Shown here piece after piece: positions 35,701 to 63,005 of a stretch of 64,000 bases of DNA. The notes under the pieces were generated by a model. That model was given only the letters and a program-made list of their open reading frames with translations. It did no database searches and was not told where the DNA came from. Positions within the stretch are counted from its first letter, which is position 1, and every line of letters begins with the position of its first letter. A program made the position numbers and the translations under genes. Source of the stretch: Tetracentron sinense (taxonomy: Eukaryota; Streptophyta; Magnoliopsida; Trochodendrales; Trochodendraceae); contig CM026557.1 of NCBI GenBank assembly GCA_015143295.1, positions 34,171,965 to 34,235,964 of the forward strand. Reading direction: 5' to 3'.

Positions 35701-38700
35701 AATCCTAATTAAACTAAGAGCTTTTGGTTATATATCGGTGAGAGAAGATTTAGGGCGTTTGAATCCACCACTAGCCTCATAATTAAATTCACATGTATTT
35801 CTTCAGGTTTCTCAAAATAAACAATAGGGTTGAGATTGACTACAATCTCAACTCATCAAAATAATAATGATTCGAGGGATCAAACTCTAGGCATATCCTA
35901 TCTTTGGTTAGCACGAGTGATACACACTAAACTAGGATTGTGACATCACTTGTCTTCCCTAGGCATAGAATATCCTATAATCTGATTTCTCGACAATAAA
36001 GACCATTGCATAAAATTCATTCCAACAATCAAAGAAAGAAAATATGAATGAATTCAATCTCAACAAGATAAAACCTAAGACAAGAATAAGATCATGTTGA
36101 AACTGAGTTTAAACTCAAATAATTGGTTGAAGAACAACTCTCTCATTATGCAATCATTGTTTATACAAGAAATAAAACCTAAATAAAATACAAGGGACAA
36201 AATTACTCAGCTAGGGTTTCATCTAAACCCTAGAAAAAGAAATTAGTTCGTAGCGAGAGCAAGGGACACCGCTTTCGACGAAGAACATGAAGAACGCGAA
36301 TAACCCATCCTCCAACCTTCATAGATCTTCAGAGTCTTCTTTCTTCAATTCCAAAATTTAGAACCCTTTTCAGTGCAGGTAGGTTTTTCTTTTATAGAAA
36401 ACCCTTTTTGCTAAAATCCGGTTTTAGAAACCTTCAAGAGGCAGCTTCTAACTTTTTCACATGGGTTCTGTGGCCAGAAAATGCCAATGATGATTGATCG
36501 TCAAGTAGGACGATCGATCGTCTATTCCTGAAATTTCTTCTTTGGCTACGGGTTTGTGGACGATCGATCGCCAAGTATATATGATCGATTGTCACTGTTC
36601 TGACTGGCGATCAATCGTTCCTTACTTTTCTTCTTTTCTTTCTTTCTCGTTAGCCTTTTTCCTGATGAGGTTCATTTTCAACTTTGTGATCTCATAATTC
36701 CTCAATTTTGTCTTCTTTTTCTTGCATGAACCTGAAAATAATAAACACACCCAAATGAAGTATCGTAGTGGATAAATGGGCTCAAATGGATTAACAAATG
36801 CAGTTTAAGGTGCATAAATGTGTAACAATTAGCATCAATCAATGTATTTTTCGTAATATCTTTTGCCAGTGACTTCATATATCATTACCTTGCAAATTTC
36901 TTACTCAGTTTTCATTGATGTTCATTGCTAACATATCTCTTGATTCCTTGAGTAATTGTCCTATACACATTGTGAGCAACCAATTGTACTTTAGAAGATA
37001 TGTTTTTCTTTTAATCTTGTACATGAAGTTCAAATGCATTTTATCATCTTCATGATATAGTTTGGCACTGAACATAGGTGCTCCTCAATCTTCAAAAGAC
37101 ATGATAGGAAGATGTTGTATTTTCCTGCATGAGATTACTTATGTATAGGTTCATTGTCATAAGGAGTTCTAAATTTTGCCTTTTCCCCCATATCTCCCAT
37201 AAGACTGTCACTCTTTTTTTTAGTTCAATGGCTTTATGTTGGTTCACCATCTACTTTGCTTCTCATTGTTCTAAACATCTCATTCTTCTAATAACTCAAC
37301 TGATGCAAATTTTGTTATTTGCAGGAGCATCTAGATTATGATGTGGTGAAAAGTGCCAATCCCGAGTTCAAGAAAGCAATTGTGCGGATAAACATCTTTA
37401 AGCAACACAGACAAACAATCCAGGTTTGAAGAGAGGGTTCAAATTTTCATTGCACTTATCATTTTGTTTATTTTACACCATGATAATCATGTTGGTGTGC
37501 CTGTTGTTTTACAAAATATGAAGGTTGTTATTATGCCATGTATGGTACTTGGGAGTGTCCCTATGGTTAGAACTGAGGAACTTATCACTTAAATTTCAAT
37601 TGTTTGCATAAGCAGTTTTCTTTGATACATTTCGGTCATTTAAATAAGCATTCGTTTTTTAAATTACATATCGGAATGAATTACAACTGATGGAATGCGT
37701 TCAAAGTCTTGGGAACACTTTCTGATTGGGATTGACTAACCATGAGTTGAGAGTGATCCCTGGATGGAAGAATGTACTTCTAAATAACCATTGAAGGACT
37801 TGGATATCATTATTTTGGCATTGAAAGACCTAGAGGATTGGGGATCAACATGTTCTCTCTCTCTCTCTCCTTCCACCATGAACAAGTGAAGTAATGTAGA
37901 TTTAAGACCAGCAATGATGGCTTATCGATCAAAAAAAAAAAGACCAGCAATGATGGCTTCTTGAAACTTATAAGTATATGGACATGGTGCGCAAATTTGA
38001 GTCTTAAAGGGAATTTGAGAATATATATAACATTGCCATGGAGAGGAATTTTATGGTGAGTTCATTCTTTGATTTAGTAGCTGGTAAATTGATGTGGAAC
38101 CCTGGACTGCGAAGGGTGTTAAATGATTGGGAGATGATTGATTGATTTAGTGTAGTCAAAGTGTCTAGATGATGCCTAGGCGATAAGGGTTCTCTAGGCA
38201 AGGTGATGCCTAGGTGTTGCTTAGGCGACAAAAATTACTTTTATCTGTTTACATTATATAATATTAAATAAGATTTAGTGAGTGCCTGCCTAGATCCTTA
38301 TCTAGGCGATAGTGGTCCTGGTTAGGTGAGGCGGTGGCCTAGGCAACATTTTGACTACACTGGGTTGATTTCCTTCACCTATTGACCCATCTTAATCTCA
38401 TTCAGCCTAAGATTCATTCAGTCATTCTAGAGATAGCCATGGATCAAAATATCGACAGTATTGATACGTATCGTACAATGTCTATATATAAAAAAAAACT
38501 TATTGATAGACAATAAGAAACATCCATGTAATAAAAACAATTACAGAGTTTTGGTGCATATCGACAATCGAAAAGTTTTGGTCGTACCGGTACGGATACA
38601 TATTGGTACGTATCTAAACTGACTATAAAAGCTGCATTTCAAGATGTTTTAAACACCATTTCTCTCCTCCTTAGCTCCTCTCCTCCAAATCCTTTGTTCT

Positions 38701-41700: not shown

Positions 41701-43851
41701 TTTATAAGTTAAAAAAAGCAGTGTAGTCAAATCGTCCAAGCGATGCCTGGGCGATAGGGGATTCCCTAGGCAAGGCGATGCCTAGGCGACCAAAATTTAT
41801 TTATTTTGTGTACATTATATAATATTATATAGGAATTAATGAGAGCCCATCTAGACCATGAACTAGGCGATAGGGGTCCTGGCTAGGCAAGGTGGTGGCC
41901 TAGGCATTGCCCAGGTGACATTTTGATTACACTGAAAAAAAGTGAGCATGCTGATAAACAAGGATGAAAATAGAAATCATAGTCACATAGCCAAGTATAG
42001 GCATACAATCTAAATAAATATGAAAACCTTATATTCAATGAATACATAAGATAAGTATTGACTTCACTTTACAATAATAAAGTAAATGACATGCATTATA
42101 CAAGCTCAATACTACAATGAACTACATGCCGACTTGAATTCTAGATTGAAAGTATTTTTTTAAATATTGAAGATTTTAGAATTTTCAAAAATTTCAAAGA
42201 AAGTGATGAAAAATCATTGATTTCTCATAAGGAATGATTTTTGATAAATGGATTTCACGTGAAATCAATAGATCTATTAATTTTAGGTTGATTACAACCT
42301 ATTATCATTAATTTAAATCACTAAAATTTAGTAAAAGAAAAGAAATTTTGCATACCTTAAAAAATTTGGGGAAACCCTTTTAATCCGAAATTAAATGCTT
42401 AAATCTTTGTTCTTGAACATAAAATAGATGATGGAGTTGTTGTTTTAGGCTTAGAAATTGATTAGAGAATAAAGTTTGTGGAAATACTGGGTTCTAGGGA
42501 TGTTTACAAACACCCAAATGGTAAAATAACTTGTTCATGAGTATCGGTCCGATACGCACCGATACTTTTCCTAGGAGTTTTATGTATTCCCCATACCAAA
42601 GTATCGGATAGCGCAAATTCCAGAACATATCGGACCACGCCCAAGTACGTATCGATATTTAAAACCATGGTGGTATCGATATTTAAAACCATGGTGGTAT
42701 GTAGAGTTGCTTTGTGTGTTTTCTAAGAAGGCCAGTGAGATCATCCTATACTTGCCCGACGGTGTTTATGATAAGAAGGGGATATTTTTTAGAAGATACT
42801 GCCTAATCCGGTCTTTAGGGCATTTGGAGAGAAATTGTAGGATTTCTTGAATTCTATATCGTCTTTCCCAAAGTTATATTCTTCCATCAGTTGGAGTCTT
42901 AAGTGGTTTGTCAGCATCCGTACAAGAGTTTTTAGATGTATATGCCTCTCTTTTATTCAGTCTCTTGTGATTATCGTCTTTGCCAAAGTTATATCCTTCC
43001 ATCATGGAGTCACTATTATATTTTATTTTGTGACTAAAGAGATTCTTTTAGCTGTTTTTTTTGGGGGGAATATCCTCATTTCACCATTTCTTGTAAATAT
43101 CTTCCATCTTAATACAACTCTCATTATCCATCAAAAAGATAGATGATCAATTGCATTAATTAATCTTGCTCATATCTCTATGATCTCCCACTTGCCTTGT
43201 GGAATTTAAGAAGTTTCCTTCAATAATATTTGATCAATTAATTTTGGCCTTTAATGATCTGAATTCCATCTGATGTTTAAAATCTTTACATATTCCCCGT
43301 TGAAGCTGAAACTATGATTGAACATCTTTGTTATAGATAATAATTTTAAATTTTATGTAATGTAGTCAAGGCGTCTAGGCAATGCCTAGCCAGTGGTCTC
43401 TGATTAGGCGAGGTGGCGATTAGGCGACAAAAAAATACATTTATTGACTGCATATAACTTTAGCATTCCTCTATATAAAACACTGATATCCTCAAATGAA
43501 ATAGGCAAATATACATTCACAAACATGTGCAATTACATTAGGAGTTACATGTATATACAAAATAGGAGGGATAAGAAAAAAAACATTCGAATGCCGTGAT
43601 GTGTATATATATATTTATATATAGAGAGTGAACTCGTTTCAAAAAAAGAACAAAGGAGATGAGAGGAGGAGAGAAACTTTAGTCCGTTGATAAATAGGTG
43701 AGAGAGGGGTTTTTGGTCTCTTGAATAGAAAAAGGGAGAGAGAGAGAGCGAGAGAGAGAGAGAGATTGTGGGTCCCTGAAACAAAAAAGAAGATACTTAC
43801 AGGTACATACAAAATAGGAGGGATAAGTAAAAAAACATTAGAATGATGTGA

Positions 43852-43882
<31 letters not shown>

Positions 43883-44840
43883 TTGTATATAGAGAGAACT
43901 TGTTTCAAAAAAAGAAGAACAAAGGAGATGAGGGGGAGAGAAAACTTTAGTCCATTGATAAATAGGTGAGAGAGGGGTTTTTGGTCTCTTGAATAGAAAA
44001 AGGAGAGAGAGAGATTGTGGGTCCCTGAAACAAAAAACAAGAGACTGAATGAAAGAGAGGCTTACAGAATGGAGAGAGAGAGAGAGAGCGGACTGTTGGG
44101 TCCCTGAATCAGAAACAACAGGCGAGAGACAGGTTTATAGAGATAGAGGGAGACGAAGACAGAGAGGAACCAACATATAGAAAGAAAAGAAGGGAGAGAG
44201 AATATTTTACTTTTTCCTTTCCTCTTCTTCTTCTTGACTCTCCTTTAAAGAAAGAGAGGCATATAGAATGGACTATGGAGAGACAAAGAGGGGACTGTTG
44301 GTCCCTGAAACGGAAACAAGTCAACAACTGCTGAGATGGCTTGAAAGATAGAGAGGGACCAACATATAGAAAGAAAAGGAGGGGGAGGGGGGAGGATATT
44401 CTACTTTGTCCTCTCCTCCTCTTCTTCTTCTTGACCCTTAAGGGTATTACACGGCAAACAAAGTATATTCTATTTGTACCATACTATGTTGAGCGGATTC
44501 TTTAAGACAACAGGCGTGTCCCATGTCGATGCTTGTGGACATGGATTCTGCACGGAAACACCTTGGATATGCATGTTGTGACTCATATCAACAAGAATTC
44601 ATGATTTTTGGACTCAAATGGACACGGATTCTCCCGATACCCATAAGCTTTTGGTATTTATTATATGAAAGAGGCATACAACTGCATATAATTAGCAAAA
44701 ATTTCAGAAAATTCTTTTGAATTCTCACCATAAGAATAGAGAAGCTGATAGGGACAGATGAGAAGAACCACGATACATTTATTTTGAACAGGAAAAAAAC
44801 AGAGAAACAATTGGAGGAATTACTGATCCCTGTGATAGAA

Positions 44841-49770: not shown

Positions 49771-52700
49771 GGGAAATGATACAAGTCACGTAGTGCGTGA
49801 ACTCTAAATGAGTTCACGCAAGCTAAAATCAAGGACATCTTTGGGAATTGATATAAGGAGCAAGGGTATACTAGGAAATATTGTCTATAATTGATTTTAT
49901 GAAAATGGCATTCATGTTTTAATTAATTACATAACTGCCATTTATACCTTTGATGTTTTTGCTTGCGTGAGTATTGAGGAGTTCACGCATTGCGTGAACT
50001 CTAGCACAACCCATATATATATATATGTCTCTCTCTTTCTCTCTCTATATGTATATATACTATAATTTTTCATCAACTTCTTGAATCTTTTTGCCATTAT
50101 ATTATATTTATTTGTTAATATTAGAGAGCATGAAGCTTTCTTGTGAGGCTTACGCTTCACGCCTCGAGGCTTACGCCTCACGCATCTTGAGGTCCTAACG
50201 CCTCGCCTCACGCCTTAACGTTTTAAAACATTGGTACATATGTTAATTTGTACATGTACATTGGATAGCACTATAGTCTATAGATATACACTGAAGGCAT
50301 TACTGAGGCGTTTTTAGATTTGGATCCCTATGGTCCAACCTTGAGTTCATTTGTTTCGAGATTTCTCAGGTCTTCTATGTTGGACACTGCTCCTGCCTTA
50401 AACTTTCATAGCCCCAAATACGCTATAAATCCTGGAATGACTTGAATTTCTATTATTTTTGCTGCTCCTACTTCCACTCTGACCTAACATTCTGCTGCTT
50501 CCAGCAAGTAGGAACTAACTTACCCATTGTCAGGTTATCTATTCCTGTTCTGATAAGCTCCATCTTCCAACATTCAAGAAATATTGTGAAGAAGTGTGTT
50601 TAATGCATTTCATATTTGTGAATTAATCTATGATTTGGGCTGCCACCACACACTGTTTTATTATTAAACGATAGTAGCAAAGTAAGGCGTAGTTTCTTTC
50701 TTCCTTTTCTTTAATTTTTATTTATTTATTTTGCATTGCCACTGGTATCACATCAGGCTCTTTATCAACCACCATTTGGTCATGTATTGGTTCACAAATC
50801 TGGGATCTTTGGATCATGCTGGTTAACAAAGTAAATGTTTCTGAAGTCTTTTTTTTTTTTTTTGTAAACATACTCAGCTTTCTCATTTGTTTGAATGTAG
50901 GTAGGGTCTTCAAGAAGGTAGAATTAAGTGAATCTATCCGATATGCTTCTGGTGATCCAATTGAGTCATGGCTTCATGGTTTACTTTGCTTGGATGTTAC
51001 AAGCTCCATCCCCAGCATCAGTAGGTTAGTCTTGAAGTGTTGAGGCCCTGTAGAAGATATCGCCATCTCAACAACTTAATTGATGCCCTCTTTTGTGCTC
51101 CTAGGTTACCTCCTCCAAGTGATTGTGATCTTTACTATGTTAATCGGGATACACTCTTCTCTTATCACAAAGACAGTGAGTTATTTTTGCAGGTAACTGT
51201 GTAGTCCTTTGTTGTTGATTTTTAATTTTCTAAAACTTTCTTTTATTAAGACATACTTGGTGCTTGTGTATGTTAATCCTTACAGCGAATGATGGCCCTT
51301 TATGTTGCTTCTCACTACAAAAATTCTCCAAATGATTTACAATTAATGGCTGATGCTCCAGCACACCACTTGTTTGTGTTACTTGGTATGTTTGCTCTAC
51401 AGTGAACTGGTTCCATTTATCTTATTTCCCACAAATTGGACATCTACTTACTACCACGTGTGCAGGTCCTGTTGATGAGTCGAAAAATCACCTTCCTGAT
51501 ATTTTGTGTGTCATCCAGGTTTGTTCTATCTTTTCTATGTCTTTGCAAACACACACACTCCAAAATCTATCTACCTACATTATTCTATTAGATAATTAGG
51601 TGTATATTAACTTTTTATGACTTGAAGCTCTTCTCTTTTATGCCTTTTTGATTATCATATAGTCATTGTCAACAATGCCTCATCCCAAAATATTTGGGTT
51701 GGCCACGCAAAAACTGTTCCACCATTCCGCTTTATTTAAGGCCATAACGTCAGTTGAATCTTGTGTTATCAAATATTTCTTCACAATCTCCATTCACACC
51801 ATTTTTGGCTCTCATCACCCTTTTGGATTCACTCCTCACTGACACTGTGAGTGGTCTTCTTTGAACGTGTCGAAATTATCTTAGTCGACTCTCCTTTATT
51901 TTATTGCCTTTTGGAGACACTTCTGGATTATCTTGAATGCGCTCATTTTTTATCCTATATTTTCTTGTCTTTTTCACTCATCCATCTTAATATCCTCTTC
52001 TCGATTACACTAATTCCATTAATATGTTGCTTCTTAGCCCAACATTGTGCTACATAACACATAGTTGATCTTATCAATGCAATATAAAATGTTAGTTTGA
52101 TCATAATGCGTCGCTCACATAGCACTTTGGTAAAAAGCTCCACTTTAGCCACTTAACTTTAATTCTAGGGACGAAGACATTTTCAGTCTCTCTATCCTTA
52201 TGAATACTTAAGCCAAGATATCGGAATTGGTCGCTTTGAGATATCTAATGGTTATTTATCTTAACTACTGCTCCCCATGCTATTCTTGTTCTTTTTAAAG
52301 TTGCATTCCATGTATTCTGTCTTGGTTTGACTTATTTTAAATCCTTAGATTCCAAAGTATCCCTCTACAATAATAGTTTTGTATTTACCTCATCTTTAGT
52401 TTCATCAATTAATACCATGCTATCTGAAAATAACATACAACAAGGGACCTCTTAAATATGAGCCGTCAATTCATCCATAACCAGTGCACAAAGATATGAA
52501 CTCATAGTTGACCCCTGATGTAACCCTATTGTCACATGAAACTTGATTATCTCTCTGCTAGTTGTTCACGAGATAGTTATCGCTTCATCATACGTATCCT
52601 GAGTGGTATTAATATATTTTATCGATACTCCTTTCACCCCCCAACTATATTAATTCTCTAAGGACTATCATATGTTTTCTCAAAGTAAAAAAATACCATA

Positions 52701-55700
52701 TAAAGATCTTTCTTCTTCGCCTTAAACTTCTCCATCAATTGTCTAAGTAAGAAGACAACCTCAGTTGTAGACCTCCCCAATATGAATTCAAATTAGTTTT
52801 TTGAACTCTCTCTCATAACTTCATAGTATGACTCATAATTTTGATCTTGTGATAATTGATATAATTTTGGATATATCCTTTATTCTTGTAGATAGGTACC
52901 CCAATTGATAGTATTTCCCCTTGCTTCTGGCATTTTCTTAGTGGTCAAGATATTATTAAATAACCTCATAAGTTAGGATAAGTGTTTTAAAAAGTGTGAG
53001 AGGCTTACGTCTCGATGCGAGGCTCAAGGAAAACGCCTTGACCCCTAACCTTGAGGCTTAAATCGCTTGAGGCTAACGCCTCAAACAGTGAGGCTCACTT
53101 AATGTCTTAGGCATGTGTCTAATACATTAATCAAAAATAGGATTTTAGCCACATAACTGAGATTTAAACATTAAATTTTTTTTAAGGAGTGCCTAGGGCT
53201 GTCAATGGAGCGGATTCGAAGCGGATAGTGCTATGTCCGTATCCGATTCGTTTAATGTTAACTCTTATCTGAATTTGCTCCGATAACTGGTGGATACCGA
53301 ACTGAAGAATTCGAATTCGATTAAATATTTAAATTCGGATATTATCCGAATCCGACCGATTGATATCCAACTGAAATTTGTTGAGAAATGGGGTGATGAT
53401 GAGGTCAAGGGTTTGAGATGGGCTGGTGGTGGATGAGTTTGAAGGAGGTTTCGACGTACTATCTATGTTGATGCTTGTTGCGTTGATATGAGCACAGCGG
53501 ATGCTGGCCGAACTCTTGCTGCGTTAATCTGAGCATGGTGGATGCCGGCCGAACTCTAGCTACGTTGATCTGAGCATGGTGACGTTGGCCGAATGCTTTC
53601 TGCTCTTGAAGACAAAAGGGTTGTGGTTCACCCCCCAACGAAATAGTGACACTGGTCGAATGCGTTGTGGCTCTTCCAAGTTATTTTATCAGAGGAGAGG
53701 AGAGGAGAGGAGAGGAGAGGAGAGGAAAAGGGATGAGAGGAGATGGCGGCCAAACATTTGCAGATGAAAGGGCTTCGGGTTTTGTTTGTTGAGGAATATA
53801 TATAATCTAAATTTACCTTCTTAACCTCATGTGCTTATAAAAATTACGAAATTACCATTGTAACTTTTAAGATTAACAAGGTTATTGTTGACATATACAA
53901 ATTGTATACATTGTAACAAACGGTCGGATATTTATCGGATCGGATAGGGTACTATCCGTATCCGCTCCGTTTATGAACAGATAGACAATAGGATATCCTA
54001 ATTTGATCCGCCGGATAACTATTTAGATAATTGTCCGCTTAAACGGATATGGATTCAGATAATTAGCGGATAGTTGACATCCCTATATGTGCCTTACACA
54101 TTAATCAAAAATAGGGTTCTAGCTTCCAGCCACATAACTTTTTTTATTGATAAACAAATATTAATTATTTTCTTTTTTCATTTTGTTATTAGTCTAAATT
54201 ATCACTTAATTTATTATGTCTAACCTATTTAGGCTTTTTAAAACCTTGTTGAGTATATTTCACCATAGTTGCAGGGAAGCTATGTACAGAGTGGGAAGCT
54301 CGCTTCCCCGGAAGCTCGTTTCTCAGACTCGCTTCCTCAGACAGAATCGCTTCCTAGGAAACTCGCTTCCTCAGACGGACTCGCTTCTTAAGAAGCTCGT
54401 TTCCATCACATCTCATTTAAGATCAAAGGTAGTTGTATGTGTGAAGTAATGGGATAGACTATAGTCTATAGCCTAGGGGTGTAGAAGCTAAGCAAGTGTC
54501 GTCAGTTTGGAACCTAAGGCATCTACTTTTTTCACAAAAATCTCATATAAGATAAAATCAAATATATAACTACTCATAATAACATAATGGGAATGAGGAG
54601 AATATATCTCATTTCTTGCTTCCCGTTTCCTAAGGTTTTTTTGAGTCTCACTTCCCGCTTCTCGCTTTCGCTTTGCTTCTCGTTTTCGCTTTTCGCTCTG
54701 GTAACTATGTATTTCACTCTAATTTTAATGGTTGACATTGCAAAGATTTTGAGCCATTGTCTAACATATGCAGTTGTTGACTACTTTGTAATTGTTTGTT
54801 GGCAACCAACCACATGATTGAACATTATCCATCGTTCAATATGTATATGAATAAAAAAGTGAATCTAAATTTTAGATTTTCTTGCCTCTTAATTTTTTTT
54901 TGTAGTTGAATAATTTATATAATATTACATATGCGTGTGCGTACATATGTACATTTGTGTATTACCTTTAATTAATTTTTTTGAATCTTTTTACAAGATT
55001 CTTATTTATTTATTTGTTAAAATGAGGTAGCATACGCCATACAGTTTTCTTGTAAGGCTTAAGCCTCACACCTCGTGGCTTATGCCTCACACATCTTGCG
55101 GTCCCAATGCCACACCCCACGCCTTCGCAATCAAGATATGTCAATTTCTCCTATACATTTCGACACTTCAATTTGAATATTATTTGGTCGCAGAACCTTT
55201 CCTATCTTCATCCTAGTAAGAGCTTTCACTTTTGTTACCCTTATTCTACGAAAATAAGGTTGGTAGAGCTTCTTTGATGAAAGCCGGAAGAGAGAGAGTT
55301 CTCTCTTAAGAATCCCCAAAATAGTTGCAAAAATCCTCCAGAATTCCTTTAGGTGTGTAAAATTGATTTTAGGTATTACTAGATCAAAAATTGGAAAAAA
55401 TCTGATTTTATAAATTGGTAGTATCGTTAAGTACATTACTGACACACTGCAGTATAGCAAAAATGTGAGTGTTGGTATTCTGAGATCTCAGTTTCAGTTT
55501 AAACATGAGTTGGCGGTGATTATCCTACCACCGATTTTGAATTCTATTTTTGAATCCGATTTGGCAGGTTTCCTCTTTGGCTTTAGCAACTTCTTTTGAT
55601 GGATTTTGCACATTTACAAAAACCAAGCGGCTGTACTTGAATTACAGCCACTTTGAATTTTTGACTAGAAACCCTATTATTCAAAAAACGAACCCTAGGA

Positions 55701-58700
55701 TGACACATCACCCCATGGTTGGTCAAAAACCAGTTTTGCCTTTTGAAAGCTATTTTAACTCTGAAAAGGCTTAATTTCACCCAAATAAGTACTTTTAATA
55801 AATATGAGATAGAAGAAACCTCTTTGAAAATAACAGCGGTATTTTTGGTAATTTTTCAACTCAGTGACATTTTGGTAATTTTTGAAAAATGAGTATTTTG
55901 ATAACTTTTGAGGGATTCTTGGGAACTCTTTGATAGGTCATAGGAAGTCGTGTAGGCCCTATAGGGATGCAAAATTGGGTACTTACTATTGGATTTGAAA
56001 GCAATCTTTACTATGAATTGCTTCCTTAATCATTTCTTCCAACCTAGTGTATCATAGAGGATGCTTTGAGTTGTACTGTGATTTTGTCACAATGAAACTG
56101 ACTGAAAGATAAATCTGCACTCTTTGTTAGCTTCCTCATAGACATTTCTACTGAGGCAATTTGGCATAGGCATGTTATGATGGGACCTCAAGGTGGAAGC
56201 GTTCTCAGGTGGATTTTTTTTCCAGATTTTATGTTGGAGCAGATAGGCCCTTGAGGGAATTTTAGCAACAGCTAGAAAGGACTCCTCAATTGCATGCCAC
56301 TACCGGTTGCAGCTGCAAGATCAACTTTGGCTGTTTTAACAGGATAACTTGCGACCACGTGAAGTAGCATGACAGCATGACACGGCCTTGTTTCCCAGGG
56401 GAATCCAATAGCACTATGACACTTGTGTGCGGTGCCAGTAGCATGTACAGATGGCTACTCTGGTGGGTTCTGCACTCAATGTGGCTGCGGACCTATTGTA
56501 GCTTGAGGTTGACATCCAATGCTTAAAGATTTGTTAAAAAGGACTCATGGTGCATTGTGTTCCATGCTCTTTGAGACTGGAGTATGAAAATATACTTTTT
56601 CTAGGGCTCTTAAAGTCTGATGAACCAACACCATAAAGATATTTTCTCACAAATTTTCTCGTATCAATTAACCAACATTAAGAAAATTACTTTTCCAAAC
56701 GTGAGGAAATAAAGTGAACAACTAACATGTTTCACATTGATATTTAATTCACAAGCAATTCAAATGTATACAATACATGTCAAAATGAAAGAGGTGACGT
56801 ATGGATAGGGCATTTTTCAATTCTATTAAGAATCCCCCCTGCCCTGCCCCGCTTTTCTTCTCTTCTACACATACACTGTGAAACCCCGAACCAGCGCCTA
56901 GGGAATCAAGTTCCGAGACGCGTGTCCGTTCGTCAAATCATGCAAGCGGAAGACTTTACCCGCAAAAATGCGGGAAATTTAAACATTTATCAAATGCTTC
57001 CAAAAAGCAAATAACACCTGTCATCACAATAATCATCATACAAACCATATACCTGTATTATTTACATCAAGTTTGTTTTACAAAAGTAGGCGTCTCTATC
57101 ACGCCAGGTACAACTTGTACAAGCTTCCAAAATATCCAGATAGACTTTTCACTTACTGGTCAGCAGCTCTAAGATCTGCTGACACAAAAAGTCAGTGAGC
57201 TATGAAGCCCAATAAAACCACAATCCTTCTAAACTATTTTCCACATAATAACACACATCAATAATGATATAATAAGCAGTTCAATTTGCATGTTACAGTA
57301 AAATAGAACAGTATATAATAAATTGTGACCCTAGGGTCACTTAGGGTTACGTCACCCTAACAGAGGTTCCCGACCTCACATTACTTTCCAATTATGAGGT
57401 TCAGTTATGAATGTATTATATTACCAAATTATCGTTTCGATCATCAATCATGTTTTATTTCGAGTCCTAAGACTCTATTAATTGGCCACAGCCCACAAAT
57501 GTTTAGCTTAAAGTCTCTAAATCATAACCATAATACATTGAGTCATTTAGACTCACACACGCTGTTCCGGCTTTCACCCGAACATGACAAAGCCTTGGGT
57601 ATACCAACCCAACTCACCTGGAATCCGACGATTCCATACCGACTATGAGTCCACCAACTCAAACAAATACACCAACTCTGACCACTTCGTATCCGAAGCT
57701 TACACACACAACATGGGCATTCACCCAATAAGAACATTTTTCCATTCAATTGACTGGCCACATCTACCGTGTATTCGCAGCCATCGCCCTGGGTATAAGT
57801 TATGAAGGAACCCCGACCAACCTGCCTACCGTCATCTTCTGGCTAGTCTACGGAGGAACCCCGACATCTATACCAATGCCGACATCTCCTGACGTTCCAC
57901 CAAGAAGGGACCCCGATAGACACGGTGCCGACATCTTCTAACCCACCCAGAGAGGAACCCCGGACTATACACTATCTGATGTTTAGCCACTTTAAACTCC
58001 CTAGGACTCCGACATCTCTTGACTACCAGTCACGGAGGAACCACGGGCCATGCAGGACACCGCCACTCCTGACCTAGTCCAAGAGGCACCACAGACGACC
58101 TAGACAAACAGACCGACATCTCCCGACTATCAGTCACGGAGGAACCCCGGGCCTTACTGGACACCGTCTCTCCTGACCTAGTCAAAGAGGAACCACGAAC
58201 TATACTGAACCCTGGTTAGATTTTCTAACCACAGGTTAACCCCAGTTAACCCAAGCCTCGCTTGATTAACTGAAATACTTGGGCCTCGCGCCCGTGAACC
58301 AACTCCGGTAACACACCGTCCCGTTAGGGAACGTTTTCAAGCTAATAGATGTCTCCATAGCCTTACAAGACATGCAAAACAACTTTTCGTCACCCTAGAG
58401 TGGCGATACAATTTACCCGGGACCCGATCTGGGCTCCCTGAGGGACCACATAAAATCACAACATCACATAGGGGTCTCCGCCCATTTTTCATTCATGTTA
58501 AAAGACATGCATATACATCACATGAAATAATATAGCAAAATAAGCGGAAAAAGTGAAGAAAAGAGAGGGGTTTTACTGTTTCACGCGTTTCGAGGCCTTG
58601 TAGGCAAAAACGGATGTCACCAACGCGTTCCCAACGACGATCAACCCCAGGGTAGAGCGCATGCAACTTTCTCTCTCCACCTTTTTCTCTCTCTACACGC

Positions 58701-61700
58701 AAAACGAGACGCCGGAGAGAAAATCGGCCGCCGCCAACGTGTCGGGGACGTCGAAAAACCTCAAGGACCCACTTCTCTCCTCTTTCTCTCTCTTCCTTTC
58801 TCTCTCCTCACTCTCTCTCTAAAATCTGCTGTGGCAGAATCTCCCCCTCTGTTTACAGAACGTAAATAATGGGAAAGGCTGGCCTCCTTTATATATAGAT
58901 AAGGTCATGTGCTATGCACATGACCATATTTAATGGTCCCGTTGACTAAGTCAACGGTTGACCCATTTGACTATTTTTTTTTTCTCTTATCTATACGACC
59001 TCCGTGTATCAACTTTCTCTTATGTATATAAAAAAAGGGAATAATAGTCAAATGGTCAACCCGTTGACTTGGTCAACGGGGACCATTAATGGTGGTCATG
59101 TGCATGGCACATGACCCTTGCATTATAAATAGAGGGCAGTCCCTTTTAATCTCACGATTTTGCAACAGTGGGAGATTTCTGCCACAACAGATTTTAGAGA
59201 GAGAAAGTGAGGAGAGAGAAAGGAAGAGAGAGAAAGAAGAGAGAAGTGGGTTGACCATTTGCAGAAATCTCCCACTGTTGCAAAACCGTGAGATTAAAAG
59301 GGGCTGCCCCCTATTTATAATGCAAGGGTCATGTGCCATGCACATGACCACCATTAATGGTCCCCGTTGACCAAGTCAACGGGTTGACCATTTGACTATT
59401 ATTCCGTTTTTTTATATACATAAGAGAAAGTTGATACACGGAGGCCGTATAGATAAGAGAAAAAAAAATAGTCAAATGGGTCAACCGTTGACTTGGTCAA
59501 CGGGACCATTAAATATGGTCATATGCATAGCACATGACCTTATCTATATATAAAGGAGGCCAGCCTTTCCCATTATTTACGTTCTGTAAACAGCGGGGGA
59601 GATTCTGCCACAGCAGATTTTAGAGAGAGAGTGAGGAGAGAGAAAGGAAGAGAGAGAAGTGGGTCCTTGAGGTTTTTCGACGTCCCCGACGCATTGGCGG
59701 CGTCCGATTTTCTCTCTAGCGTCTCGTTTTGTGTGTAGAGAGAGAGAAAAAGGTGGAGAGAGAAAGTTGCATGCGCTCTACCCAGGGGTTGATCGTCGTT
59801 GGGAACGCGTTGGTGACATCCGTTTTTGCCTACAAGGCCTCGAAACGCGTGAAACAGTAAAACCCCTCTTTTCTTCACTTTTTCCACTTATTTTGCTATA
59901 TTATTTCATGTGATGTACATGCATGTCTTTTAACATGAATGAAAAAGGGGCGGAGACCCCTATGTGATGTTGTGATTTTATGTGGTCCCTCAGGGAGCCC
60001 AGATCGGGTCCCGGGTAAATTGTATCGCCACTCTAGGGTGACGAAAAGTTGTTTTGCATGTCTTGTAAGGTTATGAAGACATCCATTAGCTTGAAAACGT
60101 TCCCTAACGGGACGGTGTGTTACCGGAGTTGGTTCACGGGCGCGAGGCCCAAGTATTTCAGTTAATCAAGCGAGGCTTGGGTTAACTGGGGTTAACCTGT
60201 GGTTAGAAAATCTAACCAGGGTTCAGTATAGTTCGTGGTTCCTCTTTGACTAGGTCAGGAGAGACGGTGTCCAGTAAGGCCCGGGGTTCCTCCGTGACTG
60301 ATAGTCGGGAGATGTCGGTCTGTTTTTCTAGGTCGTCTGTGGTGCCTCTTGGACTAGGTCAGGAGTGGCGGTGTCCTGCATGGCCCGTGGTTCCTCCGTG
60401 ACTGGTAGTCAGGAGATGTCGGAGTCCTAGGGAGTTTAAAGTGGCTAAACATCAGATAGTGTATAGTCCGGGGTTCCTCTCTGGGTGGGTTAGAAGATGT
60501 CAGCACCATGTCTATCGGGGTCCCTTCTTGGTGGAACGTCAGGAGATGTCGGCATTGGTATAGATGTCGGGGTTCCTCCGTAGACTAGCCAGAAGATGAC
60601 GGTAGGCAGGTTGGTCGGGGTTCCTTCATAACTTATACCCAGGGCGATGGCGGCGAATACACGGTAGATGTGGCCAGTCAATTGAATGGAAAAATGTTCT
60701 TATTGGGTGAATGCCCATGTTGTGTGTGTAAGCTTCGGATACGAAGTGGTCAGAGTTGGTGTATTTGTTTGAGTTGGTGGACTCATAGTCGGTATGGAAT
60801 CGTCGGATTCCAGGTGAGTTGGGTTGGTATACCCAAGGTTTTGTCATGTTCGGGTGAAAGCCGGAACAGCGTGTGTGAGTCTAAATGACTCAATGTATTA
60901 TGGTTATGATTTAGAGACTTTAAGCTAAACATTTGTGGGCTGTGGCCAATTAATAGAGTCTTAGGACTCGAAATAAAACATGATTGATGATCGAAACGAT
61001 AATTTGGTAATATAATACATTCATAACTGAACCTCATAATTGGAAAGTAATGTGAGGTCGGGAACCTCTGTTAGGGTGACGTAACCCTAAGTGACCCTAG
61101 GGTCACAATTTATTATATACTGTTCTATTTTACTGTAACATGCAAATTGAACTGCTTATTATATCATTATTGATGTGTGTTATTATGTGGAAAATAGTTT
61201 AGAAGGATTGTGGTTTTATTGGGCTTCATAGCTCACTGACTTTTTGTGTCAGCAGATCTTGGAGCTGTTGACCAGTAAGTGAAAAGTCTATCTGGATATT
61301 TTGGAAGCTTGTACAAGTTGTACCTGGCGTGATAGAGACGCCTACTTTTGTAAAACAAACTTTATGTAAATAATACAGGTATATGGTTTGTATGATGATT
61401 ATTGTGATGACAGGTGTTATTTGCTTTTTGGAAGCATTTGATAAATATTTAAATTTCTCGCATTTTCGCGGGTAAAGTCTTCCGCTTGCATGATTTGACG
61501 AACGGACACGCGTCTCGGAACTTGATTCCCTAGGCGCGGGTTCGGGGCGTCACATACCCTCCTGAGGTTTTCTAACAATTCTAGACCCTGTCAATATGAG
61601 CGGGGAGGAAATGCAAGATGGTACTGTGTAACTGTTCCAGATTGCAGTTAGTTGTTGGGTTGGCTTGGGGAGGTTGAGCATTAATGCGGTGATCGAAATC

Positions 61701-63005
61701 CAACTCATTAATAAATGTGTTGAGAAAAGCAAACTCGAAACCAACCAATAAGGAACTTCTTAATCATAATCTACTCACTTAAAATTAATAGTTAATATAT
61801 ATTGCTAACGTTCACCATGAAAGCCGTTTGTCTCCCCTATATATATATGGACAATTTTGACTTTTCTTACATTTTTTTGTCTCCCTTATTTAATAAATTG
61901 TCTCCTATGAAAATACCGAAATACCCTAACCTTTAATAGAATGGTATTGAATATATAGGGGTAAAAAAAGTCTGGTGAAGGTTAACAAGTTCACACGCCG
62001 AGTGAAGGATAGCATCCACTGTTTGGTTGAAATTTTTTGTCAAATTTGCTCTTTGTTTTTCTTTCCCCGTTTTAATTTCTCAGGAATCAAACAAAGGAAA
62101 ATATCATTTTCTTTCTATTTACTTTTCTTCCACCTATTTTATCGGCAACCATATAGAGGGTTACTGAATATTAAACTCTTTTTCTTTATCAGTGCTTTCT
62201 ACCAATTGTTTGGGGTAGTCAAAACGAATGTTGTTTTGCTAGTATAGTCTATCAAAAGGCCATATAAATTAAAGAATTATGATCAACTTAGAGTTAGACC
62301 AGCTCACTTATTTTCATTGGTGCCGTCATTGGTATCTTATTGACTTTGACTTAGAAGTTAAATCGAAGTGAGACATATGGGGAAAAAATGAGATATTGAG
62401 AATGATCCCTCTTATCTTTTGAAATGATTCTTGTCATCTGATCATTAGCTATCAGAGCTAATTGTCCCGTTGAAACGAGGCTTCTATAACTCTGCTTAAC
62501 GTTTTCTGATTTTGTAATACATGCTGGTTATCCTCTCCTCTCTTTTCTAGATAGGGGTTTTTGTTGTGCTAATTTGTGCTCTTGATATTGATGCTTCTGC
62601 TACCTTTGAAACACATACACACATATTCATTGTTAATTAAGGTGATTCACATTTTATTTTGGTGATGCTCAGAATCGTTAACAATACCATCTTATTTACA
62701 GGTCTGCCTTGAAGGGCAGATTTCTCGTAAATCGGCAATTAAAAGTTTAAGTGATGGTCATCAACCCTTTGGAGATCAAATACCATGGAAATTTTGTGAG
62801 CAATTTCAGGACACAGTTTTTCCAAGTCTTTCAGGTGCTCGCATTGTACGCATTGCTGTCCATCCAAGTGCTATGAGGGTAATTCTCTGTTATAAGCATG
62901 CCAAATTGTTTTTGTTCACCAAATACTTTGTCGAAGCTAATAAACAAATTCGTTTCGTTTGTTGTAGCTTGGATATGGTTCTGTTGCAGTGGATCTTTTA
63001 ACAAG
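20613..63005 (+). CDS. NAT10-like: RNA cytidine acetyltransferase, NAT10/Kre33 family (5' and central part; continues past the window)
   Basis: Nucleolar ATP-dependent enzyme making N4-acetylcytidine in 18S rRNA and tRNA; needed for small-subunit biogenesis. Spliced coding exons: 20613-20717, 20803-20894, 27082-27253, 27401-27523, 34313-34486, 34765-34875, 34985-35118, 35212-35305, 37325-37423, 48737-48873, 49085-49182, 50901-51024, 51105-51192, 51286-51385, 51466-51518, 62702-62878, 62968-63005. All junctions are GT-AG and phases agree, giving about 639 uninterrupted codons of the roughly 1,030 usual for the family. Domains: TmcA N-terminal domain (exons 1-6), RecD-like helicase with Walker A ARGRGKSAALG (exon 7) and Walker B VVDEAAAIPLP (exon 10), then a GNAT domain with acetyl-CoA loop VHPSAMRLGYGS (exons 16-17). 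The C-terminal RNA-binding part is outside. The start matches the family N-terminus (MxRKKVDxRIRxLIENGV). No break is visible in the exons, so the gene looks intact despite introns of up to 11.3 kb. Confidence 0.96.
20803..20894 (+). CDS. NAT10-like exon 2
   Basis: IVNLHYMLSKAVVKSRPTVL and WCYKDKLELS, ending in phase 2. It is followed by the 6.2-kb intron 2. Confidence 0.93.
20895..22007 (+). other. Intron 2, first part
   Basis: AT-rich intron sequence with a G10 run at about 21831. No element ends recognised. Confidence 0.4.
22008..22774. mobile_element. hAT-like non-autonomous element in intron 2
   Basis: 767 bp. Inverted ends CAAAGATC...GAATCTTG extend into matching sub-terminal repeats (ATCGACAATATCG near the left, CGATATCGACAG near the right). 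Exact 8-bp flanks GTTAATAT at 22000 and 22775. No coding sequence. Confidence 0.7.
22837..24061 (-). repeat. Candidate degenerate solo LTR in intron 2
   Basis: 1,225-bp block whose minus strand starts TGTTGCTACGAGC and ends AAACACAACA, with a TATAAAAG-like box at about 23188. The 5-bp flanks (TCTTT, CCCTT) agree at only three positions, so the boundaries are tentative. Family unknown. Confidence 0.35.
24062..26170 (+). other. Intron 2, unassigned
   Basis: AT-rich, without an ORF or paired repeat that I can support. Confidence 0.35.
26171..26511. mobile_element. Probable MITE in intron 2
   Basis: 341 bp with inverted ends TGTGCTTGACTCACAGGCAG and its near-complement CTGTCTAAGCGTCAAGCACA. The matching sub-terminal CGATTGA motif is also inverted. 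TSD unclear (perhaps TA), so the superfamily is not assigned. Confidence 0.6.
27082..27253 (+). CDS. NAT10-like exon 3
   Basis: Completes Ser from exon 2, then HKKKRAKQIKKLMQRGLLDP and ILGNTFGMCILQ, all strongly conserved in NAT10. Confidence 0.95.
27401..27523 (+). CDS. NAT10-like exon 4
   Basis: 41 codons, DFEALTPNLLARTIETVEGG...LYTMVM, in frame at both ends. Intron 4 (6.8 kb) follows. Confidence 0.95.
27524..28614 (+). other. Intron 4, first part
   Basis: Ordinary T-rich plant intron sequence. No element ends identified. Confidence 0.4.
28624..29057. mobile_element. Foldback MITE, probably Mutator-like
   Basis: 434 bp with long inverted repeats of about 180 bp. The ends are AGTGGTATAAAAG and the complement of AGTGGCATTACAAAG. 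Each arm carries the palindrome CTCACTACAANTTGTAGTGAG. The 9-bp flanks TTATATGTG and ATATATGTT agree at 7 of 9. Confidence 0.75.
29395..29520 (-). mobile_element. tRNA-derived SINE-like fragment
   Basis: The minus strand has a box A-like TAGCCCAACGG and, about 35 bases on, a box B-like GGGATCAAATC, the internal Pol III promoter layout of plant SINEs. The 3' tail is not clear. Confidence 0.4.
29755..30293. repeat. Tandem repeat block with TTAACCACAG / AACCAAGGTTAT motifs
   Basis: At least two copies of a unit of about 180 bp. GAACTCAGGAAGTTCAATTG recurs at 29918 and 30098, each followed by TTAACTCT(T)AGGGTTAATAT and AAAAACCAAGGTTATA. The sequence style resembles the Helitron at 20055-20459 and fragment 40690-40870. 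A minus-strand Helitron-like 5' end sits at 29754. Confidence 0.6.
30294..30733 (+). mobile_element. Small Helitron
   Basis: 440 bp. 5' end A/TCTCTAATAGTTAATACATTC; 3' hairpin GCGTGCCTTGCACGTGCACGC, then CTAG/T. No coding sequence and no target duplication, as expected. Confidence 0.82.
31308..32258. mobile_element. hAT family R, copy R1 (951 bp)
   Basis: Ends CATGGTTTAAAATAG...CGATATTTTGAACCATT with ACCGATACG-rich sub-terminal repeats. The 8-bp flanks ACTTTTAG and ACTTTAAG differ at one base. Same length as R4. Confidence 0.82.
32672..33384. mobile_element. Non-autonomous element with exact 9-bp duplication
   Basis: 713 bp flanked by GCATACATC at 32663 and 33385. The arms are inverted (AAATCGTAAGATTCAATTC near the left against GATTCAAATCTTACGATTTA near the right). 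The 9-bp duplication suggests the Mutator superfamily. Confidence 0.72.
33394..34312 (+). other. End of intron 4
   Basis: No element recognised. A GC-richer patch at about 33630-33790 interrupts AT-rich sequence but has no ends I can pair. Confidence 0.35.
34313..34486 (+). CDS. NAT10-like exon 5
   Basis: 58 codons: DVHERFRTES, GRFNERFLLSLASCKACVV and LNILPISSHI. Confidence 0.95.
34765..34875 (+). CDS. NAT10-like exon 6
   Basis: 37 codons, DSEGLSETERDLKNLKDQL...KCCTLDQ; linker before the helicase domain. Confidence 0.92.
34985..35118 (+). CDS. NAT10-like exon 7 (Walker A)
   Basis: GKAVITFLDAILDKTLRSTV then LLAARGRGKSAALGLAITGA. GRGKSA is the nucleotide-binding P-loop of the helicase module. 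Ends in phase 2. Confidence 0.96.
35212..35305 (+). CDS. NAT10-like exon 8
   Basis: YSNIFVTAPSPENLKTLFEF and CKGFDALEYK. Intron 8 (2 kb) consists mostly of a solo Athila LTR. Confidence 0.95.
35510..36841 (-). mobile_element. Solo LTR of an Athila-type element in intron 8
   Basis: 1,332 bp homologous to the LTRs of A and especially B (16298-17653). On the plus strand it starts TGATCGTCAATTTATTAAAC and ends TTAGCATCAATCA. Flanked by an exact 5-bp duplication ATGTA (35505-35509, 36842-36846). It has a CGATCG array at 36487-36612 and a TATA box at about 36390 (minus). No internal region, so it is the product of LTR-LTR recombination. Confidence 0.95.
37325..37423 (+). CDS. NAT10-like exon 9
   Basis: 33 codons, EHLDYDVVKSANPEFKKAIV...RQTIQ. 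Intron 9 (11.3 kb) follows. Confidence 0.95.
37424..38139 (+). other. Intron 9, first part
   Basis: T-rich intron with a (CT)9-type microsatellite at about 37855. No element recognised. Confidence 0.4.
38148..38362. mobile_element. MITE family M, copy M1
   Basis: 215 bp, ends TAGTGTAGTCAAA...TTTGACTACACTG, interior of repeated CCTAGGCGA motifs. The 8-bp flanks GATTGATT and GGTTGATT differ at one base. hAT-like. Confidence 0.8.
38439..40402 (+). mobile_element. hAT family R, copy R2, with a BED zinc-finger remnant
   Basis: 1,964 bp with family ends CATGGATCAAAATATCG and CGATATTTTGAACCGTG. The flanks GAGATAGC and GAGACAAT differ only by transitions. At about 39450-39650 the plus strand encodes VLCKYCHIVIAGRGG and a KKKARKK tail about 50 residues on, as in the BED finger of plant hAT transposases (CxxC....H then an M...LxKKKAKK helix). 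The second half of the finger has changed and the rest of the transposase is gone. This marks family R as hAT. Confidence 0.8.
39465..39797 (+). pseudogene. BED zinc-finger fragment of a hAT transposase
   Basis: 110-codon open stretch beginning MCKYCHIVIAGRGG. CxxC is present, but the LKQHLA helix has become FQDDLAN, so the H/C zinc ligands are not all in place. The downstream part has no dimerisation domain. Not a functional gene. Confidence 0.65.
40690..40870. repeat. Fragment related to the AACC repeat block
   Basis: Contains GTGGTTAAGATTCACTCACC, CCTAGGGTTAAG and AACCTTGGTTTTTAGAAA, like 29755-30293 in inverse order. Ends not determined. Confidence 0.4.
40926..40998. mobile_element. MITE family M, partial copy M3
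   Basis: Starts GCAGTGCAGTCAAAG and carries CACCTAGGCGATAAG and GCGATGCCTAGGCGA. The right half is missing. Confidence 0.55.
41483..42692. mobile_element. hAT family R, copy R3, containing MITE M2
   Basis: 1,210 bp from CATGGTTCAAAATATTAG to GATATTTAAAACCATG with exact 8-bp flanks GTGGTATG (41475, 42693). The terminal 24 bases, ATCGATATTTAAAACCATGG plus TGGT, occur twice in tandem. Confidence 0.88.
41719..41934. mobile_element. MITE family M, copy M2, nested in R3
   Basis: 216 bp, ends CAGTGTAGTCAA...TTGATTACACTG with exact 8-bp flanks AAAAAAAG (41711, 41935). Nearly the same length as M1. Confidence 0.88.
43360..43435. mobile_element. MITE family M, partial copy M4
   Basis: ATGTAGTCAAGGCGTCTAGG, then TGCCTAGCCAG and TTAGGCGACAAAAA. 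One end only. Confidence 0.5.
43545..44040. repeat. Tandem duplication, period about 252 bp, GA-rich
   Basis: Two copies (about 43545-43796, 43797-44040), each with TACAAAATAGGAGGGATAAG, a (TA)n run, GTTGATAAATAGGTGAGAGA, a (GA)n run and GATTGTGGGTCCCTGAAACA. The (TA)n and (GA)n lengths differ between copies. Confidence 0.9.
44045..44440. repeat. Second GA/CT-rich tandem duplication, period about 200 bp
   Basis: Two copies each contain GAAAGAGAGGC, GGACTGTTGGGTCCCTGAA, GACCAACATATAGAAAGAAA and a CCTCTTCTTCTTCTTGAC end. The GGTCCCTGAA motif links it to the preceding block. Confidence 0.8.
44441..45290 (+). other. Intron 9, middle
   Basis: No gene recognised. A (GA)17-type microsatellite lies at 44844-44876. 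Confidence 0.4.
45291..45417. mobile_element. MITE family M, diverged copy M5
   Basis: Right end CACCTTGACTACACAG is typical. The inside has GCGGTTGCCCAGGC-type repeats. The left end GTGACTGCCTTAGTGCC is eroded. Confidence 0.5.
45966..46916. mobile_element. hAT family R, copy R4 (951 bp)
   Basis: CATGGTTTAAAATATCG...CGATATTTTAAACTATG with exact 8-bp flanks ATTATAAG (45958, 46917). Colinear with R1, and the same length by my count. Confidence 0.9.
46925..48124 (+). other. Intron 9, late part with a C21 run
   Basis: No gene recognised. About 21 C residues (47048-47068) are followed directly by about 10 T residues. Confidence 0.4.
48125..48510 (+). pseudogene. 3' end of an L1-type LINE
   Basis: The plus strand encodes PRAISWSIWQERNRRVFDNS followed by SFSLIQARIRFMIYEW and a stop, as at the end of plant L1 ORF2. 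It continues with a TTGTACCTCTTTTTGATTAA tail and a short A-rich end at about 48505. 5' truncated. Confidence 0.72.
48737..48873 (+). CDS. NAT10-like exon 10 (Walker B)
   Basis: YIQPHEHEKLSQVELLVVDE then AAAIPLPVVKSLLGPYLVFL. DEAA is the Walker B motif. Phase 2 end. Confidence 0.95.
49085..49182 (+). CDS. NAT10-like exon 11
   Basis: YEGTGRSLSLKLLQQLEVQS...NSVDGSIS. The acceptor is an unusual AAAG/T. Ends in phase 1. Confidence 0.88.
49441..50233. mobile_element. hAT-like family N, copy N1, with a nested MITE
   Basis: 793 bp, ends CAGTGTTGTAAAAAG...CGTTTTAAAACATTG, with GAGGCTTACGCCTCGAGGC-type repeats in both arms. Exact 8-bp flanks GTACATAT (49433, 50234). Confidence 0.9.
49771..50012. mobile_element. 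Mutator-like MITE inside N1
   Basis: 242 bp. The arms GGGAAATGATACAAGTCACG...TGCGTGAACTC and GAGTTCACGCATTGCGTGAA...GCACAACCC are inverted over about 35 bases. Inserted in a (TA)n run, so the 9-bp ATATATATA flanks are not diagnostic. Confidence 0.7.
50242..50900 (+). other. Rest of intron 11
   Basis: Ordinary T-rich intron ending in a T17 tract and the acceptor. No element recognised. Confidence 0.4.
50901..51024 (+). CDS. NAT10-like exon 12
   Basis: RVFKKVELSESIRYASGDPI then ESWLHGLLCLDVTSSIPSIS. Two AG acceptors lie 4 bp apart (TAGGTAG); only the first keeps the frame. Confidence 0.92.
51105..51192 (+). CDS. NAT10-like exon 13
   Basis: LPPPSDCDLYYVNRDTLFSY and HKDSELFLQ. Confidence 0.94.
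51286..51385 (+). CDS. NAT10-like exon 14
   Basis: RMMALYVASHYKNSPNDLQL and APAHHLFVLL; the most conserved stretch before the acetyltransferase core. Confidence 0.95.
51466..51518 (+). CDS. NAT10-like exon 15
   Basis: Only 53 nt: GPVDESKNHLPDILCVIQ. Intron 15 (11.2 kb, with the giant palindrome) follows. Confidence 0.93.
53194..54085. mobile_element. hAT-like element (TAGGGCTGTCAA ends) inside N2
   Basis: 892 bp, TAGGGCTGTCAATGGAGCGG...TAGTTGACATCCCTA, with GGATAC/TATCCG-rich arms. The 8-bp flanks GGAGTGCC and TATGTGCC share 5 of 8. The middle carries three GCCGAACTCT-type repeats and a (GGAGA)n run. Confidence 0.68.
53690..53727. repeat. (GGAGA)n microsatellite
   Basis: About seven units of GGAGA/GAGAG in a row. 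Confidence 0.9.
54264..54709. mobile_element. hAT-like MITE inside N2
   Basis: 446 bp, CATAGTTGCAGGG...CTGGTAACTATG, exact 8-bp flanks TATTTCAC (54256, 54710). Interior of repeated CTCGCTTCC and TCGCTT units. Confidence 0.88.
55461..56876 (+). other. Intron 15 between the LINE and the palindrome
   Basis: No gene or paired ends recognised. Short TTTTGGTAATTTTT repeats occur at about 55846-55880. Confidence 0.4.
57806..58205. repeat. Degenerate minisatellite in the left arm of the palindrome
   Basis: About eight units of 40-60 bp built on GGAACCCCG and CCGACATCTCCTGAC-type cores. Mirrored at about 60226-60625. Confidence 0.75.
58887..59557. promoter_or_regulatory. Core of the palindrome: four TATA modules and TTGAC (W-box) clusters
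   Basis: TATA boxes at 58887-58898 (minus, outward), 59124-59131 (plus, inward), 59312-59319 (minus, inward) and 59546-59557 (plus, outward). Between them, 58938-59090 and 59347-59500 each hold about eight TTGAC/GTCAA cores, e.g. CCGTTGACTTGGTCAACGG. Each TATA follows a GGTCATNTGCATNNCACATG palindrome at about 20 bp. Function is inferred. Confidence 0.5.
60226..60625. repeat. Mirror copy of the minisatellite in the right arm
   Basis: Reverse-complement units (CGGGGTTCCTC and GTCAGGAGATGTCGG), in the same order as the left arm when read outward. Confidence 0.75.
61555..62701 (+). other. End of intron 15
   Basis: Ordinary AT-rich intron sequence. No gene recognised. Confidence 0.4.
62702..62878 (+). 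CDS. NAT10-like exon 16 (GNAT core)
   Basis: VCLEGQISRKSAIKSLSDGH, IPWKFCEQFQDTVFPSLSGA and RIVRIAVHPSAMR; start of the acetyl-CoA binding motif. Confidence 0.95.
62968..63005 (+). CDS. NAT10-like exon 17 (last in window)
   Basis: LGYGSVAVDLLT, completing the R-x-x-G-x-G acetyl-CoA loop begun in exon 16. Phase 2 end. Remaining exons lie beyond 64000. Confidence 0.93.

Follow-up and report, generated by a model that had tools for sequence, protein, structure and literature searches.

How could a retrotransposon family whose long terminal repeats (LTRs) lie in direct orientation give rise to a long palindrome with the same LTR terminus at both of its outer ends? This question is raised by positions 56877-61554 of a 64,000-nucleotide (nt) stretch of the Tetracentron sinense genome (1.16 Gb), taken from GenBank assembly GCA_015143295.1, contig CM026557.1 (G000:C7:34171965-34235964 in our coordinates). 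The whole stretch is called the window below, and positions refer to it unless a contig is named. Both arms of the palindrome lie inside a single intron of a gene for a NAT10-like RNA cytidine acetyltransferase. The answer that we favour, with moderate confidence, is that the insert is the integrated by-product of a reverse-transcription failure in a Ty3-type LTR retrotransposon, in which a complementary DNA (cDNA) strand folded back on itself and the product was joined to the chromosome by integrase.

Anatomy of the palindrome and its parent family

The two arms, 56877-59182 (2306 nt) and 59261-61554 (2294 nt), are reverse complements with a BLAST identity of 97.7% over 2308 columns, and they differ by 37 substitutions in 2292 aligned columns and by 4 gap events (Kimura two-parameter distance, K2P, 0.0164). 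An inverted repeat of 2.3 kb is far beyond chance. The outer ends are exactly TG/CA (TGTGA... on the left, ...TCACA on the right), and the adjoining 5-bp flanks, TACAC and TACCC, agree at 4 of 5 positions; agreement at 4 or more of 5 is found in 2.0% of 59,300 position pairs at the same spacing within the window. Between the flanks there is no mirror match over 300 nt on each side of the palindrome. The initial annotation, made from the letters of the window, had described reverse-complement arms of about 2.3 kb with TG/CA ends and a flank matching at 4 of 5, which the arm alignment and the flank comparison confirm. The spacer and the difference in arm length that it reported also exist, with values of 78 rather than 76 nt and 12 rather than 14 nt, and its proposals of an LTR origin, of insertion as one unit and of a location inside the NAT10-like intron are supported. 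The features are as follows, where A and B are two subfamilies of the LTR, U3, R and U5 are the unique 3', repeated and unique 5' regions of the LTR, and L numbers are stretches fetched from the genome.

56872-56876, no strand: left flank TACAC, putative target-site duplication with one mismatch (flank comparison; family solo LTRs)
56877-59006, minus strand: outer part of the left arm, 3' 2130 nt of an A-type LTR (short U3 piece, R, U5) with its U5 end at 56877; 96.4% identical to L010 and 95.6% to L011
58883-58897, minus strand: TATA-like box of the A-type promoter in the left arm, outward-pointing (motif only)
59007-59030, no strand: left-arm filler of 24 nt joining A and B (junction confined to the two arms)
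59031-59251, plus strand: piece of a B-type LTR, inverted relative to the A piece, with the U3 end, a TATA-like box at 59122 (motif only) and the start of R; 95-96% identical to L017, L019, L020, L023 and L024
59183-59260, no strand: unmirrored spacer (hairpin loop) of 78 nt (arm alignment)
59248-59261, plus strand: turn of 14 nt, reverse complement of 59049-59062, sharing GGGT with the B piece and one G with the second fold-back
59261-59412, minus strand: right-arm B-type piece, 99.3% identical to L017 over 152 nt
59413-59436, no strand: right-arm filler, mirror of the left filler (arm alignment, junction search)
59437-61554, plus strand: outer part of the right arm, 3' portion of an A-type LTR with its U5 end at 61554; 96.0% identical to L010
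59545-59559, plus strand: TATA-like box of the A-type promoter in the right arm, outward-pointing (motif only)
61555-61559, no strand: right flank TACCC, putative target-site duplication (flank comparison)

Within the LTR part of each arm (58009-58196 and 60235-60422) there are also two 84-nt copies, 104 nt apart and 87-88% alike; matching pairs are present in other members of the LTR family.

The parent of the arms is an abundant Ty3-type LTR retrotransposon family with direct LTRs, TG/CA ends, a 5-bp duplication and the Ty3 order of domains. A genome search with most of the left arm (56877-59177) gave 4287 first-look candidates, and scores were taken from the best 40. A full-length copy at C14:11284775-11295280 has two LTRs of about 2.78 kb each that are 99.7% alike, the duplication CTTAT and, directly 3' of its 5' LTR, the sequence ATTGGTATCAGAGCC, which we take to be the primer site for initiator methionine tRNA. 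Its coding region is not one single open frame; gag, protease, reverse transcriptase, RNase H and integrase (rve) domains were found in Ty3 order by Pfam in two open frames. We then surveyed 17 LTR ends in the neighbourhoods of 16 of the 20 fetched stretches, matching the terminal motif with up to two errors and leaving out the window itself (L009), L027 and L028. Solo LTRs flanked by identical 5-bp sequences account for 12 of these ends and the C14 element for two, while the remaining three (L015, L021, L023) border an internal region; the LTR measures 2733-2779 nt at the 16 of 17 ends for which the far end was located. In L021, L023 and L025 the primer-site motif (the reverse complement of ATTGGTATCAGAGCC) stands immediately outside the equivalent of the arm terminus. 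From this position of the motif, the palindrome is seen to end on both sides in the exact U5 terminus of the family, and the LTR sense points outward in both arms.

Each arm holds only the last 2.13 kb or so of the 2.7-2.8-kb LTR, the 5' 0.6 kb or so being absent: the A-type match ends after 2130 nt, at a point where ordinary copies go on into the remaining U3. Inward of it come the 24-nt filler and then a piece of about 220 nt from subfamily B in inverted orientation. By eye, the filler contains a near-repeat of the A-type stretch CTCTTATGTATA found just before it, and the 25-mer queried for it had no BLAST match in the fetched LTRs, a comparison of low power for a query that short. When the A-filler-B junction was searched in the genome with up to 3 mismatches, by a procedure that skips very common words, the 2 matches were the palindrome's own arms. 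In the genome-wide search for other copies of the same centre that the initial annotation had envisaged, positions 59150-59295 had no second full-length match among the best 40 of 458 candidates, other copies matching separate parts only.

The insert has no internal region, no direct LTR pair and no U3 terminus. Although the outer 2.13 kb of its arms is the same LTR 3' portion as in the C14 copy, with the same U5 terminus, it is not a Ty3-type element proper: it has two outward U5 ends from inverted, partial LTRs, whereas the C14 copy has an internal region and a direct LTR pair. With solo LTRs it shares an LTR origin, TG/CA ends and the lack of a coding region; however, it is an inverted, doubled, partial LTR from two subfamilies and not one complete LTR. 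Nor is a mobile family of palindromes supported, as the junction search matched the A-filler-B junction at this locus only.

Within the A piece, to which this count was confined, the arms share 13 substitutions that are absent from all 7 A-type copies compared, and in the 21 control pairs that these copies form with one another no more than 5 such substitutions are shared (mean 0.8). Because the junction is unique to the two arms and these private substitutions are common to both, one arm must have been copied from the other. The proposal in the initial annotation that two LTRs were joined head to head therefore has to be given up: the arms were not joined but copied, they contain only the 3' 2.13 kb or so of the LTR with both outer ends U5, and inverted pieces of a second subfamily occupy the centre. 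The differences that separate the arms today are unevenly spread (chi-square p 0.023; longest difference-free gap 422 nt, p 0.020), which is suggestive, and only suggestive, of gene conversion between them. Three left-derived changes are clustered in the 17 nt next to the left junction (p 0.0001 at that end; 0.039 when any 17-nt span is considered), and one might speculate that local error-prone repair took place there, which could also have altered the duplication. At 1.3e-8 substitutions per site and year, a value for grasses, the K2P of 1.6% gives an age of about 0.6 million years; the palindrome would be older under slower rates, and its age would be underestimated if the arms convert each other.

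Proposed fold-back of a cDNA strand and competing origins

The turn lies at the centre of the palindrome. Read from left to right, the B piece closes with GGGT at 59248-59251. The 14 nt at 59248-59261, four of them shared with the B piece, are the same-strand reverse complement of 59049-59062. Beginning at 59261, and overlapping by one base, the strand upstream of 59182 is repeated as its reverse complement. If one growing strand folded back twice in succession, the turn is explained without any outside template. As single-stranded DNA, the U3/R piece folds into strong local hairpins (z score -6.1 relative to shuffles).

Minus-strand retroviral cDNA naturally starts at the U5 end, beside the primer site. 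In the pathway that we propose from the observed anatomy, ends, shared junction, turn and unmirrored flanks, such a strand would have started at the U5 end of an A-type genome and extended through U5 and R into a short stretch of U3. It would then have switched, by way of the 24-nt filler, to a complementary-strand template of subfamily B, of which about 220 nt would have been copied. Folding back, the strand would have been primed a first time to add 10 new nt and, after taking hold a second time at 59182, would have copied itself from end to end. The resulting duplex would bear a U5 end at each terminus, and integrase would join both to the target. The maker would be reverse transcriptase, in a particle holding both subfamilies; we infer that integrase was the inserter and that the hairpin had been converted to a linear duplex with two ends. 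Insertion by integrase is suggested because the ends are exactly TG/CA, because the AT that lies between the LTR and the primer site in the C14 copy is missing at both palindrome ends (AC and TA stand there), as expected after the integrase 3' processing described in PMC12789967, and because the flanks are a near-duplication.

Several observations weigh against this pathway. The duplication is alike at 4 of 5 positions, as opposed to the perfect 5-bp duplications of the 12 solo LTRs and the C14 element. A hairpin cDNA has one open end, and the sequence does not show by what route it became a linear duplex with two ends; the 24-nt filler is likewise left unexplained by the fold-back model. The turn could possibly have been made in the order right to left, which is less economical as it would need an outside template. 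Finally, no independent second insert was found in the lists examined: by eye, there was no second U5-outward pair within 6 kb among 100 of 501 and 100 of 262 exact U5 ends, in two overlapping lists that cover the first contigs only (C1 to C4 and C1 to C8), require exact ends and show the present palindrome by its right arm only, its left end having changed, so that recurrence could be missed. A search for an empty site in the same genome gave one full-length match of the right flank among the best 40 of 887 candidates, the rest being matches of a short repeat.

The imperfect duplication, together with the three left-derived substitutions within 17 nt of the left junction, such as error-prone repair might leave, would also suit a fold-back cDNA of the same kind that the host's end-joining machinery, and not integrase, sealed into a broken chromosome. 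However, each end is cut off precisely at TG/CA, with the adjoining AT missing, and end joining usually trims or adds bases; we regard this capture as unlikely. Rather unlikely, too, is an origin within the chromosome, in which a normal or truncated LTR insertion was made palindromic by break-induced fold-back or by template switching during replication. The turn does use microhomology, as do the short fold-back inversions with a 41-nt loop reported at yeast breaks (PMC11724301), but a fold-back in the chromosome would be expected to leave a mirrored flank or an arbitrary stop, whereas here each arm ends precisely with the U5 terminus and the flanks are unmirrored.

Two independent LTR insertions in opposite orientation are hardly credible. 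Members of the family do lie near each other in opposite orientation elsewhere: C24:647125-657038 (L023-L024), with 5.6 kb between the two and the one near pair among the scored copies, was considered as a second U5-outward pair and rejected as two separate insertions, since the duplication GGAGG belongs to L024 alone, a solo LTR, and L023 adjoins a primer site. The arms of the palindrome, in contrast, share a unique junction and their private substitutions far exceed those of the control pairs. An assembly or library artefact, a concern inasmuch as long palindromes are known to trouble assembly, is very improbable given the substitutions along both arms and the gap events between them, the unmirrored flanks and the sequence of another subfamily at the centre; the initial annotation likewise argued against a mirror artefact.

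Related systems and possible function

Self-primed minus-strand DNA reportedly arises in human immunodeficiency virus type 1, where a strand from the U5 end is said to fold back and copy itself. The strand proposed here would differ from it in that it entered U3 and switched to another subfamily, and in that its product sits in a chromosome. DIRS-type and Penelope-like elements also carry long inverted repeats; here, however, the repeats come from the LTRs of a family whose LTRs are direct and whose integrase is of retroviral type. A DIRS-type element, which would have a tyrosine recombinase and inverted repeats, was rejected since the parent C14 copy has such an integrase and direct LTRs. No published description of an integrated palindrome with two U5 ends was recognised by title or opening of the abstract in a search whose coverage excluded most subscription journals, so that the case for novelty is weak.

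Transcription running through the insert from the NAT10-like gene would yield a hairpin RNA of about 2.3 kb; circularisation of exons is not expected, as both arms are in one intron. The palindrome may possibly serve as a source of small interfering RNA (siRNA), by analogy with Mu killer of maize, an inverted duplication that is proposed to act via a hairpin from read-through transcription (PMC3440606). Common to the two are an inverted duplication, outer ends that both come from one element end, a position next to a gene and a potential hairpin RNA. In contrast, Mu killer derives from a DNA transposon, MuDR, and its silencing was tested, whereas the present insert derives from an LTR and is known by its sequence. 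The analogy cuts both ways, because the same study found no silencing in individuals that had read-through sense transcripts (PMC3440606).

A wider reading, which we hold to be less likely than not, is that LTR retrotransposons can form palindromic cDNA with two U5 ends by minus-strand fold-back, that their integrase can insert it, and that a locus of this kind within a transcribed intron would become, in one step, a hairpin siRNA source against its own family. If so, a self-primed minus-strand product can be inserted into a chromosome and inherited, and plants would have a way of acquiring hairpin loci that target a retrotransposon family, much as Mu killer is proposed to target MuDR.

The host gene and other repeats of the window

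The NAT10-like gene lies on the plus strand, with a match to PF05127 (NAT10 helicase) near 48734 and one to PF13718 (GNAT) from about 62690; two of four open frames tested have these Pfam matches and the other two have none. The intron is as follows, its limits having been set by eye from GT/AG sites.

51519-62701, plus strand: palindrome-bearing intron of 11.2 kb (CAG/GTTTG and TTTACAG/GTCTG sites, with Pfam matches on either side)

In the right flank of the palindrome, 61856-62015 is a repeat of about 160 nt found at 39 other places with 81-87% identity among the best 40 of 887 candidates. It resembles a miniature inverted-repeat transposable element, with an inverted second match adjoining it in a number of its genomic places. 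Further long repeats lie in the first 37 kb of the window (7103-8539, 13465-14898, 16298-17646 and 35510-36834), both direct (the first two 92% alike, the last two 81%) and inverted (76-78%). Adjacent direct repeats occupy 43545-44046 and 44048-44438, with units of about 250 nt (80% alike) and about 190 nt (75% alike), respectively.

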